Source of the DNA: Spirochaetales bacterium
Lineage (GTDB): Bacteria; Spirochaetota; Spirochaetia; JAFGDJ01
Reading direction: 5' to 3'
Length of the DNA: 52,612 nucleotides
NCBI GenBank assembly: GCA_016932135.1
Contig: JAFGDJ010000212.1
Coordinates: forward strand, 1-52,612
Shown piece after piece: positions 18,625-22,622 of this stretch (position 1 is the stretch's first letter; the number at the start of each line of letters is the position of its first letter). The notes beneath the pieces were generated by a model that saw only the letters and a list, made by a program, of their open reading frames with translations, was not told where the DNA came from and did not search any database. Position numbers and translations under genes: made by a program.

Positions 18625-18653
18625 TTGATACACAAAATATAGCGTGGTATGAT
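18625..18653 (+). promoter_or_regulatory. promoter of the nrdR-nrdD operon
   Basis: TTGATA (18625-18630), 17 nt, TATGAT (18648-18653). NrdR box 1 fills the spacer, so binding should block RNA polymerase directly. Confidence 0.8.
18630..18645 (+). promoter_or_regulatory. NrdR box 1
   Basis: ACACAAAATATAGCGT matches the NrdR consensus acaCwATATaTwgtgt at 14 of 16 positions and lies between the -35 and -10 boxes. Confidence 0.85.
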
Positions 18654-18672
18654 GGGATTTAACAGGTTTTTA

Positions 18673-18688
18673 ACACTAGATATAGCGT
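18673..18688 (+). promoter_or_regulatory. NrdR box 2
   Basis: ACACTAGATATAGCGT also matches the NrdR consensus at 14 of 16 positions. It starts 43 bp after box 1, about four helical turns, just downstream of the expected transcription start, as expected for cooperative NrdR binding. Confidence 0.85.
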
Positions 18689-18764
18689 CATTTCTAAAGC
18701 AAAAATTATATGGTCAGGCTGCCGGATCATGCCGCGCCTGTAAAAGATGGAGGAAGGATTTCCC

Positions 18765-19217
18765 ATGAGATGTCCACGCTGCGGTATGGTGGAAGATAAG
18801 GTGGTGGAATCCAGACAGAATGCCACGGGATCAGGAATTCGGAGAAGAAGGGAATGCCTTTCCTGTGGATACCGCTTCACTTCTTACGAGCGTATAGTGG
18901 AGAAACCCCTGATGATCATTAAACGAGACGGCCGGAGGGAGCCCTTTGACACGGCCAAACTGGAGCGGGGTATTCAACGATCCATCGAAAAGCGTCCTAT
19001 TCCCGCCGATGTGGTGGAAGACCTGCTGCACCGGATCGAGGATGAAGCCTTGCTGGCCGGGAAAGCCGCCCGGGAAATTTCTTCAGCGGAGCTGGGGAAC
19101 ATTGTGTTGAACAAGCTATCTTCTCTTGATCGGGTTGCATATATCCGCTTCGCGTCGGTATATCGAAATTTTGAGGATCTGGGACAGTTTATTAAAGAGA
19201 TTGAAGTTATCTCATAA
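18765..19217 (+). CDS. nrdR: transcriptional repressor NrdR
   Basis: Represses ribonucleotide reductase genes according to ATP/dATP levels. A zinc ribbon (MRCPRCGMVEDKV, then CLSCGYRF, residues 2-40) is followed by an ATP-cone (about 50-140). Length 150 aa is normal. ATG at 18765 is chosen over the upstream in-frame ATG at 18747 because the zinc ribbon starts there and GGAGGAAGG lies upstream. It is first gene of the operon with nrdD, so it is likely autoregulated through the two boxes above. Confidence 0.95.
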   Translation: MRCPRCGMVEDKVVESRQNATGSGIRRRRECLSCGYRFTSYERIVEKPLMIIKRDGRREPFDTAKLERGIQRSIEKRPIPADVVEDLLHRIEDEALLAGKAAREISSAELGNIVLNKLSSLDRVAYIRFASVYRNFEDLGQFIKEIEVIS

Positions 19218-19241: not shown

Positions 19242-21383
19242 ATGTCGAAGGCTGAGCTGAACACCTGGGATGAATTGCTGAAAAAACAACCGCAGCGGGA
19301 ATCGGTGGTGAAACATGTTATCAAACGCGACGGCACCATGGAAGATTACGACCGCTGGAAAATCGCCAGCGCCATCGGCAGGGCGATTAAAGCGGTTCGG
19401 AAAGAAGAAGAAGACCTGGACCTGGTGGAACGGCTGACAGAGGAAACGGAAAAGCGTCTGCGGAACTTTATGGCGGGCAGACACCCGAACAGTGCCCCGG
19501 CCATCGAGGAAATCCAGGATATCGTGGAAACGGTCCTCATTGAATCCGGTGATGTAAACCTGGCCAAGGCGTATATTCTCTACCGGGCAAAGCACGAAAC
19601 GCTTCGGGACGCCAACCGGTTGATGCTGGACATTAACCGCACCATGGATGGATATCTCTTTCAGACCGACTGGCGGGTAAACGAGAATGCCAACGTCAAT
19701 TTTTCCCTAGGCGGCCTGATTCTCCATAATTCGGGAACGGTAACGGCCAACTACTGGTTGAAGAATATTTACCCGAAAGAAATCGCCGATGCCCATATAA
19801 ATGCCGATTTCCATATCCATGATCTATCCATGTTTTCCGGATATTGCGCCGGCTGGTCCCTGCGGCAGCTCATTTTGGAAGGTCTCGGGGGGGTTCCGGA
19901 TAAAATCACCTCCCGTCCGGCCAAGCATCTTTCCACCCTGATACAGCAGATCGTCAACTTTCTCGGGATCATGCAGAACGAATGGGCCGGGGCCCAGGCC
20001 TTATCCAGCTTCGACACCTATCTGGCTCCCTTCGTCAAGATAGACAATCTGACGGAAGAGCAAGTCAAACAGGCAATCCAGAGTTTTATCTTCGGTGTCA
20101 ACACTCCTTCCCGCTGGGGCAGCCAGGCTCCCTTTTCCAACATCACCCTGGATTGGACGGTTCCCAAGGACCTGGCGGAAAAGCAAGCCATTGTGGGAGG
20201 CCGGGAGCAGGACTTCACTTATGGAGACTGCCGCAGGGAAATGGATATCATCAACAAGGCCTTTATCGAACTGATGATCGAGGGAGACGCCCACGGCCGG
20301 GGATTTCCCTACCCCATTCCGACCTATAACATTACCGAAGACTTTGACTGGGATTCGGAAAACGCCAGGCTTCTCTTCGACATGACCGCTAAATACGGCA
20401 CTCCCTACTTTCAGAACTTCATCAACAGCGACCTCGACCCGGGGGACGTCAGGTCTATGTGCTGCCGCCTGCAGTTGGACAAACGGGAACTGCGAAAACG
20501 GGGCGGCGGCCTCTTCGGTTCGGATGAACTGACCGGTTCCATCGGCGTTGTTACCCTGAACCTGCCCAGAATAGGGTATCTCTCCTCCACCCGGGGACAG
20601 TTTTATCGCCGCCTGGACGATCTGATGGAAAAAGCCGCCGGCGCCCTGGTGATCAAACGAAAAATCATCAGTCGGCTCATGGACACCGGGTTATTTCCCT
20701 ATTCCAAACGATACCTGAAAAATCTTTCCAACCACTTCTCCACCATCGGCATCGTCGGTATGAATGAGTGTCTGGCGAATTTTCTTGGCGAGGACATAAC
20801 CACCGAAAAAGGAAAGAACTTCGCCCTGGAAATTCTGGAATACCTCCGGGACCGGCTGGCAGATTTCCAGGAAAAAACCGGCGATCTCTTTAACCTGGAA
20901 GCCACCCCGGCCGAAAGCACCAGTTATCGCCTGGCGAAACACGACAGGGAACGGTATCCCGATATAAAAAGCGCGGGAACGGACGAACCCTATTATACCA
21001 ACTCGTCTCAGCTGCCGGTGGGGTTTACCACCGATATTTTTGAAGCCCTGGACAACCAGGAAGCCCTGCAGATCAAGTACACCGGCGGAACGGTCTTCCA
21101 CGCTTTTCTCGGCGAAGCCCTGGACGATTACAGGACCTGCCGGGAACTGGTAAGAACCATCATGATGAACTACAGGATTCCATATCTGACTATCTCGCCC
21201 ACATTTTCCATCTGCCCCATTCACGGGTATCTTCCGGGGGAACACTTCAGTTGTCCGAAGTGCAGAGAGGAAAAAAAAGTGGCTATTGAAAAAGAAATTC
21301 GCGCTCTTGAAGCGCAAAAGGATGTCCTGGCAGGGGCATTACGGGAGGGGATAACAAAGGATGACGAAGCTGGAAGAGATTGA
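19242..21383 (+). CDS. nrdD: anaerobic ribonucleoside-triphosphate reductase, barrel subunit lacking the glycyl-radical loop
   Basis: Class III ribonucleotide reductase, reducing NTPs to dNTPs without oxygen. An ATP-cone lies at about 22-110 and a ten-stranded barrel follows, with SRWGSQAPFSN, SMCCRLQL and VTLNLPRIG motifs. The C-terminus has a metal-binding cluster, CPIHGYLPGEH then CPKC, near 657-674. The usual RIVGY-type glycyl-radical loop is missing: the protein instead ends in a charged helix (about 675-705) and stops at residue 713. The missing loop is in the overlapping next gene. Start at ATG 19242, with AAAAGGGG upstream; a TTG at 19218 is less likely. Confidence 0.9.
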   Translation: MSKAELNTWDELLKKQPQRESVVKHVIKRDGTMEDYDRWKIASAIGRAIKAVRKEEEDLDLVERLTEETEKRLRNFMAGRHPNSAPAIEEIQDIVETVLIESGDVNLAKAYILYRAKHETLRDANRLMLDINRTMDGYLFQTDWRVNENANVNFSLGGLILHNSGTVTANYWLKNIYPKEIADAHINADFHIHDLSMFSGYCAGWSLRQLILEGLGGVPDKITSRPAKHLSTLIQQIVNFLGIMQNEWAGAQALSSFDTYLAPFVKIDNLTEEQVKQAIQSFIFGVNTPSRWGSQAPFSNITLDWTVPKDLAEKQAIVGGREQDFTYGDCRREMDIINKAFIELMIEGDAHGRGFPYPIPTYNITEDFDWDSENARLLFDMTAKYGTPYFQNFINSDLDPGDVRSMCCRLQLDKRELRKRGGGLFGSDELTGSIGVVTLNLPRIGYLSSTRGQFYRRLDDLMEKAAGALVIKRKIISRLMDTGLFPYSKRYLKNLSNHFSTIGIVGMNECLANFLGEDITTEKGKNFALEILEYLRDRLADFQEKTGDLFNLEATPAESTSYRLAKHDRERYPDIKSAGTDEPYYTNSSQLPVGFTTDIFEALDNQEALQIKYTGGTVFHAFLGEALDDYRTCRELVRTIMMNYRIPYLTISPTFSICPIHGYLPGEHFSCPKCREEKKVAIEKEIRALEAQKDVLAGALREGITKDDEAGRD

Positions 21384-21882
21384 AAGCCGCATCGGAGAAC
21401 TGAAAAGTCAGCTTGAACAGGTGGAAGGCACACCCACGGAGGTTTATTCCCGGATTGTGGGATATTACCGTCCGGTAAAAAACTGGAACAAGGGAAAACG
21501 GGAAGAGTACGGTATGAGAAAGGTCTTTTCAGATCTGGATTTCAACCCGTCGAAAGAAACAAACCGGCAGGAGGAAAAGAAAGCCTCTCATCGGGAAGAA
21601 GAAGTCTCCACGGAGACCATCGGATATCTGTATTTTTACCGTCCTTCCTGTCCAAACTGCCCCCCGGTGGCGGAGGCTCTGGAACAGACAGCCTTACCCG
21701 GACGCCGGATCGATGTGGATACCGAGGAAGGTTTTTCCCTGGCTGAAGCTTACAGTGTTCTGACCGCTCCTACGGTGATCTTTACCAACCCGGAAGGCCA
21801 TGAGACTTTGCGGGCTTCCACGGCCCAGGCCGTACGGTCCGCCGTCGGGATAGCGGAAAAGGCCGAAGCCGGCGTTCTTTAG
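21361..21882 (+). CDS. separate glycyl-radical subunit of NrdD fused to a thioredoxin-like domain, 173 aa
   Basis: Residues 2-22 form a charged helix (TKLEEIESRIGELKSQLEQ). Residues 26-50 are the glycyl-radical loop of class III reductases (TEVYSRIVGYYRPV, then WNKGKREEY), with Gly34 as the likely radical site. After a hydrophilic linker, residues 87-165 form a thioredoxin/glutaredoxin-like domain with CPNC (97-100) and a cis-Pro motif (TAPTVIF, Pro137). The ATG overlaps the nrdD 3' end by 23 nt in the +1 frame, after a GGGAGGGG sequence, so coupled translation is likely. Inference: it supplies both the radical and the reducing thiols to the nrdD barrel. Confidence 0.8.
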   Translation: MTKLEEIESRIGELKSQLEQVEGTPTEVYSRIVGYYRPVKNWNKGKREEYGMRKVFSDLDFNPSKETNRQEEKKASHREEEVSTETIGYLYFYRPSCPNCPPVAEALEQTALPGRRIDVDTEEGFSLAEAYSVLTAPTVIFTNPEGHETLRASTAQAVRSAVGIAEKAEAGVL

Positions 21883-21896
21883 CCCTTACCCTGGCC

Positions 21897-22622
21897 ATGG
21901 CAATCCGGCATCTGGGACTGATAAAGACATCTCTGGTAGATTACCCGGGGACCGTAGCCTCCGTAGTATTCACCCATGGATGTAATCTGCGATGTCCTTA
22001 CTGTCACAACCCCGAATGTGTTCTGGGTTCGCCTCCTGGTGATTTCCTGTTACTTGAAGAGGTTCTGGCTTTCCTGGAGAAAAGGAAATCGATACTGGGA
22101 GGGGTGTGTATCACCGGGGGCGAACCATTTCTTCACTCCGAACTGCCCGATCTGGTTAATACCTTTCACGCCCTGGAGCTGAAGGTAAAGGTCGATACCA
22201 ACGGTACCTTCCCGGAGCGGCTGAAAAAGGTGCACGCCGATTTTATCGATATGGATATCAAAACATCGCCGGAGAACTACGGAAGGCTGATACCGGAAAT
22301 GGAGAAGGAATACCCCGGCTCATCCGAAAAACTCGGGAAAGCCGTGCAGGAGTCTTTAGCGTGGATCAAAACATCGGGTCTTCCCCACCGATTCCGTATA
22401 ACCGCGGCGCCGGGAATCGTCGATGAAAAAGACGTGGAGGAAATCACCCGTCTGCTGGGACCGGGGGAAGAGGTTCTGGTTTCCGGTTTCAGCCCCTCGG
22501 TTACCCTGGACCCCTCCTGGCAGAGGGTTCAGCCCTTTCCGGATACAATCCTGGATGCCTTTGCCGAGATTCTCCGTCGGGGAAATATCACGGTAAAGGT
22601 TCGTTACAACCATTTTCATTGA
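21897..22622 (+). CDS. nrdG: anaerobic ribonucleotide reductase-activating protein (radical SAM)
   Basis: Radical SAM activase that makes the glycyl radical. CxxxCxxC is CNLRCPYC with Cys29, Cys33 and Cys36 ligating the 4Fe-4S cluster. GEPF (GGEPF) follows as the SAM-binding motif. Length 241 aa fits the pyruvate formate-lyase-activase-like NrdG type. It starts 14 nt after the radical-subunit stop. No Shine-Dalgarno sequence precedes ATG 21897, so coupled or weak initiation is possible. Confidence 0.92.
   Translation: MAIRHLGLIKTSLVDYPGTVASVVFTHGCNLRCPYCHNPECVLGSPPGDFLLLEEVLAFLEKRKSILGGVCITGGEPFLHSELPDLVNTFHALELKVKVDTNGTFPERLKKVHADFIDMDIKTSPENYGRLIPEMEKEYPGSSEKLGKAVQESLAWIKTSGLPHRFRITAAPGIVDEKDVEEITRLLGPGEEVLVSGFSPSVTLDPSWQRVQPFPDTILDAFAEILRRGNITVKVRYNHFH

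Follow-up and report, generated by a model that had tools for sequence, protein, structure and literature searches.

Can the glycyl-radical loop of a class III ribonucleotide reductase (RNR) reside on a polypeptide other than the one that carries the active site? This question is raised by two overlapping genes in a spirochaete contig of 52,612 nucleotides (the window, as the whole analysed stretch of DNA is called here). An initial annotation of the window proposed that its nrdD ends soon after a CPIH/CPKC metal cluster and that the radical loop is found in a separate redoxin-fused subunit. In our opinion, the two genes very probably encode an obligate two-subunit class III RNR, in which the small protein supplies the loop in trans and probably also the electrons.

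Organization of the Locus

The catalytic gene nrdD extends from the ATG at 19242 to the TGA at 21381–21383 (713 aa), and the small gene from the ATG at 21361 to the TAG at 21880–21882 (173 aa). A check of the open reading frames (ORFs) agreed with the overlap of 23 nt and the +1 frame of the small gene that had been annotated. The reading frame of the small gene is open from 21355 only, so that a single indel could join both genes. The features of the locus are as follows.

18630–18688, strand not assigned: two NrdR-box-like palindromes (18630–18645 and 18673–18688) upstream of nrdR; pattern scan, 1–2 mismatches
18747–19217, + strand: nrdR, RNR-specific transcriptional repressor; TIGR00244, 173 bits, above cut-off
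19242–21383, + strand: nrdD, catalytic subunit without glycyl-radical loop, with ATP-cone (aa 24–119), barrel, Zn-type site and C-terminal helix; Pfam NRDD and ATP-cone
19845–19847, + strand: Cys202, counterpart of the conserved RNR active-site cysteine (T. maritima Cys125); aligned with T. maritima NrdD, invariant in a 32-row alignment
20457–20468, + strand: finger-loop MCCR (aa 406–409), double-cysteine type; invariant in the 32-row alignment, motif classes from PMC9669993
20898–20900, + strand: Glu553, possible equivalent of the glutamate in the active site of thioredoxin-dependent class III RNRs; placed against FNIE in T. maritima NrdD by alignment, invariant in the 32-row alignment
21213–21263, + strand: Zn-type site C658-x2-H661 ... 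C671-x2-C674, end of the NrdD core; from sequence, invariant in the 32-row alignment
21267–21344, + strand: C-terminal helix of NrdD with heptad hydrophobic positions; 96 sequences, model helix 672–701
21343–21350, + strand: Shine-Dalgarno-like GGGAGGGG for the small gene, inside nrdD; from sequence
21361–21882, + strand: small radical subunit, with N-terminal helix, glycyl-radical loop, linker and thioredoxin-like domain
21367–21429, + strand: N-terminal helix of the small subunit with heptad pattern; 92 sequences, model helix 707–725
21433–21528, + strand: glycyl-radical loop domain, with the radical Gly34 codon at 21460–21462; NRDD model 532–562, RIVGYYR invariant in 17 proteins
21613–21855, + strand: thioredoxin/glutaredoxin-like domain, with CPNC at 21649–21660; profile match to 1a8l, Glutaredoxin model, CxxC and cis-Pro motif
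21897–22622, + strand: nrdG, radical-SAM activase (NrdG2 type); TIGR02495, 158.6 bits, cut-off 131

The Pfam model NRDD (PF13597, 562 positions) is divided between the two genes at 533/532. Its positions 1–533 match nrdD (E = 2e-176), which also has an ATP-cone (E = 8e-21), and positions 532–562 match aa 25–56 of the small protein (E = 3e-8). The absence of the loop from nrdD was thus confirmed, and the CPIH and CPKC motifs at the end of NrdD, the loop with Gly34 and the CPNC motif (aa 97–100) of the small protein were all located as had been described. A search of the whole window genome (G000, a MAG, 82% complete) gave no further NRDD match.

The locus shows other hallmarks of a class III RNR. 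There is a dedicated radical-SAM activase NrdG with a TIGR02495 score above the cut-off, the barrel is recognized from the PF13597 match together with the invariant C202 and M406-C407-C408-R409, and the glycyl-radical loop is present, though encoded by the second gene. Loop and barrel do not share one chain; they belong to separate ORFs, which are unlinked in seven genomes. The double-cysteine MCCR finger loop and the candidate glutamate E553, both invariant, make the enzyme NrdD2-like. Glu553 is a candidate for the catalytic glutamate of thioredoxin-dependent class III RNRs. The role ascribed to Cys202 is that of the T. maritima Cys125-type active-site cysteine (PMC4493059).

The NrdR-box-like pattern was matched 7 times in the window against 1.04 expected, and none of 100 shuffles reached 7. 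The two palindromes upstream of nrdR suggest that NrdR may control the operon. They lie 43 bp apart.

Conservation of the Split in Spirochaetes

A relative of the small protein is encoded in 28 of 41 genomes (that of the window and 40 others from its class), mostly as a separate ORF adjoining a truncated nrdD. A scan of named genomes, which may overlap as a set with the G-numbered ones, gave 80 spirochaete loci, 76 of them with nrdD on the same contig; among them are Treponema bryantii, T. berlinense, T. brennaborense, Brucepastera parasyntrophica, Candidatus Marispirochaeta associata and many MAGs. In all 76 loci holding nrdD this gene is split. The relative frames 0/+1/+2 are distributed as about 31/24/21, and the small gene starts from −26 to +306 nt relative to the nrdD stop. 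Some relatives have both genes in one frame with a single stop between them.

At the level of the phylum, NRDD matches were found in 160 of 296 Spirochaetota genomes. About 100 of the matches listed, by manual count, end at model position 525–539, and 41 of 43 such cases read as sequence are truly split; the exceptions are one gene joined through a long linker (L154) and one of another NrdD type (L132). NrdD1-type paralogues in Treponema-like genomes (L118–L120, L131), with an ordinary loop and a different motif, have nothing to do with the split.

In seven near-complete genomes (G023, G069, G161, G198, G206, G303 and G313; 99% complete, on a single contig except for G206, which has two), the distance between nrdD and the small gene is tens to hundreds of kb; in G023, for instance, they map to 1,446,491 and 919,317, respectively. 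Judged from these positions, the two subunits are expressed separately. The gene nrdG adjoins the small gene in 7/7 of these genomes (L175, L176, L178–L182), and no nrdG was found near nrdD in the four unlinked nrdD loci read (L133–L136). Thus, in genomes with unlinked genes, the activase goes with the radical subunit.

Purifying selection acts on both genes, dN/dS in close pairs being 0.01–0.08 for nrdD and 0.04–0.26 for the small gene. Five genomes at least 96% complete (G010, G036, G247, G286 and G289) contain the split NrdD and gave no match to a class I/II large chain, a class II enzyme or a class I small chain, so that the split NrdD appears to be the sole RNR there; in most genomes tested, a class I or II RNR is encoded as well. 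The conservation of the split, the unlinked pairs, the genomes with no other detectable RNR and the purifying selection together bear out the proposal of a radical loop on a separate redoxin-fused subunit.

The expectation that other spirochaetes have the same split architecture holds for all named loci with nrdD and has to be qualified for some relatives, which are joined. An uninterrupted nrdD in close relatives had been named as an observation that would speak against the split. Such genes do exist, but they are fusions of these very parts in unchanged order and so favour a shared function. The single-chain NrdD–loop–redoxin relatives (L122–L127) have this domain order and branch below the split forms. 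Two further joined forms, L172 with redoxin and L117 without it, fall inside the split forms or at their edge, and L172 is near the window in one of two trees. The data (AU p = 0.31) do not reject a single clade of the split spirochaete type-A forms (the window's type), and they are compatible both with one fission followed by re-fusions and with several independent events. The simplest scenario, though not the only one, is a joined NrdD–loop–redoxin ancestor, its fission at the Zn/loop border with the acquisition of two helices, and later re-fusion.

Helices at the Point of Division

The charged helices that end NrdD and begin the small protein had been thought to pair as a coiled coil. Type-A NrdDs have a tail of 21–33 residues (median 27, n = 96) past the last cysteine of the Zn-type site, in which hydrophobic residues occupy positions 8, 12 and 15 in 99% of sequences and positions 22/23 in 76–79%. 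Upstream of the EVY of the radical loop, the small proteins have 25–34 residues (median 28, n = 92), with positions −23, −20, −16, −9 and −6 before EVY hydrophobic in 86–100% and position −13 in half of them. Both segments show the 3–4 spacing of heptads and are matched in length. In eleven joined relatives, exactly four residues occupy the same interval, and a twelfth (L154) has a long linker; a joined product of the window would hold about 65 residues there versus 4.

The heptad periodicity, the matched lengths and the absence of both helices from the eleven joined NrdDs speak in favour of the suggested pairing, and an antiparallel coiled coil probably replaces the four-residue covalent link. 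An AlphaFold2 model of the window chain, joined artificially by one 4-base step up to residue 66 of the small protein, which favours a hairpin, has helices at 672–701 and 707–725 with a short turn between them (pLDDT mostly 82–94), followed by the loop strands at 733–744 (pLDDT about 75). The nearest solved structures are class III RNRs. The model was read from per-residue pLDDT. Structure prediction, which had been recommended for the two chains together, therefore agrees with the proposal in the two confident helices and the succession of loop strands; as a single artificially joined chain with a less confident loop it supports helix pairing, short of proof.

The Redoxin Domain

The C-terminal domain of the small protein matched protein disulfide oxidoreductase 1a8l in a profile comparison (E = 1e-10). 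The Glutaredoxin model matches 17/17 small proteins, and the CxxC and cis-Pro motif is kept in 97/97. For one relative, a model built by reading through the stop codon predicts the redoxin at about 80 pLDDT, preceded by a disordered linker of about 50 residues. The profile match, the motif and the strand–helix order in this model indicate a thioredoxin/glutaredoxin fold.

Since the motif is so uniformly kept, the redoxin is probably the reductant. A double-cysteine finger loop can use thioredoxin and, with Met, possibly formate (PMC9669993), and a glutaredoxin fused to NrdB, the radical subunit of a class I RNR, is a working reductant (PMC6187632). By analogy, the linked redoxin likely delivers electrons to NrdD. 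The idea that one subunit brings both radical and electrons is thus favoured by the conserved CxxC and cis-Pro and by the fit of a double-cysteine NrdD with a glutamate, and as regards the electrons it is a reading of sequence. The finger loop retains Met406, so that formate could be the reductant. The domain is absent from relatives in the G023 genus and at L025 and L026, and is consequently dispensable there. In L022 (G021:C11), the small gene is interrupted by a TAG and has just 77 aa of open frame; nrdD and nrdG seem intact there, and loss of the redoxin may be under way at this locus.

Proposed Two-Subunit Enzyme and Alternative Explanations

In the proposed enzyme, NrdD would provide the ATP-cone, the Zn-type site and the cysteine-bearing catalytic barrel, and the small protein would provide the glycyl-radical loop in trans and, probably, electrons from its C-terminal redoxin. 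The helix leaving the Zn site of NrdD and the helix of the small subunit that ends at the loop would zip into an antiparallel coiled coil, setting the loop as if the chain were continuous, and the loop would enter the barrel so that Gly34 faces the finger-loop cysteine. NrdG would generate the glycyl radical on Gly34, from which the radical would move to the cysteine, and reduction could proceed as in other class III RNRs. Finally, the flexibly tethered CPNC redoxin would reduce the active-site disulfide. We infer the radical on Gly34, the geometry of binding and the delivery of electrons; the sequences themselves show the split and its conservation, the expression of the subunits from unlinked loci, some genomes without another detectable RNR, the selection on both genes, and the motifs of helices and redoxin.

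The short overlap of reading frames in the window invites two simpler explanations. It may be supposed that one nrdD was broken by a 1-nt sequencing or assembly error, or is a pseudogene, since one indel could join the frames over these 23 nt. However, the same break recurs in 76/76 named loci with nrdD, in all frames and with start codons, both genes are under purifying selection, and the joined product would place about 65 residues where joined relatives have 4. Together with the unlinked gene pairs, this leaves such an error a practically negligible chance, and it was rejected. Alternatively, programmed frameshifting or readthrough could yield a single fused chain, for which the overlap and the relatives with a single in-frame stop could be cited; but neither the relative frame nor the spacing is constrained, and in seven near-complete genomes the genes lie far apart. 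This explanation was likewise rejected as highly improbable.

Other explanations accept two proteins and concern what the small one does. Its size and the position of its radical loop are similar to those of YfiD/GrcA, and GrcA restores pyruvate formate-lyase (PFL), with spare parts having been suggested for other glycyl radical enzymes (PMC8683613), so that the small protein might be a repair part for O2-cleaved NrdD and not an obligate subunit. This is improbable, because NrdD has no radical loop of its own to be repaired, none is found elsewhere in the genome of the window, and the genomes without another detectable RNR have the split form only. Somewhat more weight, though still in the range of the unlikely, may be given to an obligate split radical subunit that works with formate, its redoxin serving, for example, to protect or regulate the radical or to reduce NrdG. 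The Met retained in MCCR is linked with formate use (PMC9669993), and some small subunits have no redoxin domain. On the other hand, the double-cysteine loop and the conserved Glu553 fit thioredoxin-type reduction, the redoxin is retained in joined forms too, and its CxxC and cis-Pro motif is present in 97/97. A loop-bearing subunit that also donates electrons through its redoxin is, in our opinion, the preferable reading.

Comparison with Known Systems

The closest known enzymes are the double-cysteine NrdD2-like reductases of T. maritima and N. bacilliformis, which share the ATP-cone, barrel, MCCR finger loop, Zn-type site, radical loop, NrdG and NrdR with the spirochaete system; here, however, the loop belongs to a second polypeptide, together with a helix and a redoxin. 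In the papers that could be searched, every class III RNR described has the radical on the active-site chain, and no description of a class III RNR with the loop on a separate subunit was found.

The spare part of PFL, YfiD/GrcA (and T4 Y06I), is also a small glycyl-radical-loop protein that completes a large enzyme in trans. GrcA, however, mends an enzyme owning a loop, whereas the large subunit here never has one, and the small protein belongs to the NrdD family and contains in addition a redoxin and a coiled-coil helix. Only NRDD and thioredoxin-type models match it, and no membership in the GrcA/PFL family was detected. By homology, the split enzyme is thus placed among class III RNRs, from whose single-chain arrangement it departs, with a predicted trans-acting loop that is GrcA-like without being GrcA.

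Other RNRs have been divided or fused in different ways. In the split class II RNR NrdJa/NrdJb of Pseudomonas aeruginosa, a C-terminal functional domain is also encoded by a separate gene (PMC5704485), but NrdJb carries a cysteine-rich reduction domain and not the radical. The NrdB of Facklamia ignava is fused to a glutaredoxin shown to be a reductant (PMC6187632) and so resembles the small subunit in joining a redoxin to a radical-carrying RNR subunit, although it belongs to class I and its radical subunit is unrelated. A grx::nrdD fusion is listed in one Lachnospiraceae bacterium (PMC6187632). Phage RNR genes split by homing endonucleases or introns, such as Aeh1 nrdA (PMC3653736), also give RNRs in pieces; these are sporadic breaks, mostly tied to mobile DNA, whereas the spirochaete split coincides with a domain border, is retained in different families and is accompanied by added interaction helices.

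The proposed enzyme would be a case of a glycyl radical entering in trans, in a reductase on which some genomes seem to depend entirely for dNTPs, and would offer a natural setting for separating radical formation, docking and turnover. Class III would thereby gain a counterpart to the separate radical subunit known from class I RNRs. The enzyme also bears directly on the question, raised in the literature, of whether other glycyl radical enzymes than PFL have spare-part proteins. Together with the lone copies of the loop in phages, it suggests that the radical part of an ancient anaerobic reductase can be a detachable module.

A Second Split Type, Other Phyla and Viruses

In other classes of the phylum, a second split type was found, in which NrdD ends with CPYEHT... 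and is accompanied by a loop protein of 45–75 aa, mostly with a short N-terminus and no redoxin and sometimes unlinked (G049, G061). Neither helix nor redoxin is therefore needed for the split as such. Truncated NrdDs with 'hypothetical' partners of 45–70 aa may be misread in many genomes. G061 seems to carry one truncated nrdD and, on two other contigs, a lone radical-domain locus each (L184, L188).

The genome scan listed spirochaetes only, and other phyla were sampled through plasmids and viruses. Among Pseudomonadota, Paracoccus ferrooxidans, Cereibacter azotoformans and Cupriavidus metallidurans CH34 have a split similar to this second type, with a short loop protein and at the same model position (529–531/530–532), the loci being L260:1693–3635, L259:1639–3617 and L261:1329–3593 (Paracoccus, Cupriavidus metallidurans CH34 and Cereibacter). 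The loop protein of P. ferrooxidans is annotated as hypothetical in its record.

In IMG/VR, the loop was found in a short ORF at 56 of 69 loci (L189–L257). The viral lone NrdD-type glycyl-radical domains have 43–166 aa, and in 37 of 38 viral records tested NRDD matches nothing but the loop region. Many viral records are fragments, so that a virus may still encode a core outside its record. The heptad helix is present at at least 11 viral loci, and a 45 kb viral contig encodes a loop-plus-redoxin protein (L190:4001–4501). The ANMV-1 virus of an uncultured archaeon (KP703175.1) has a lone 144-aa protein with Zn site and radical loop (L263:2686–3120), and no NrdD core was found in its 38 kb record, despite the annotation 'anaerobic ribonucleoside triphosphate reductase'.

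With such lone radical-domain genes in viruses, the replaceable radical cartridge envisaged in the initial annotation becomes plausible, and these phage domains suggest a simple means of controlling the nucleotide supply of the host. The chances seem evenly balanced that the glycyl-radical domain is a free, exchangeable module of class III RNRs, split off in cells more than once, among spirochaetes with a redoxin and a coiled-coil adapter. The copies in viruses of bacteria and archaea would then plug into the host enzyme, either renewing its radical part once O2 has damaged it or letting the virus take over the synthesis of dNTPs. Examples of viral lone domains are L193:4001–4192 and L211:1066–1245, and L216 and L224 share one contig. 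At L240:3900–4413, also on a viral contig, the radical loop and the redoxin are encoded as separate ORFs.
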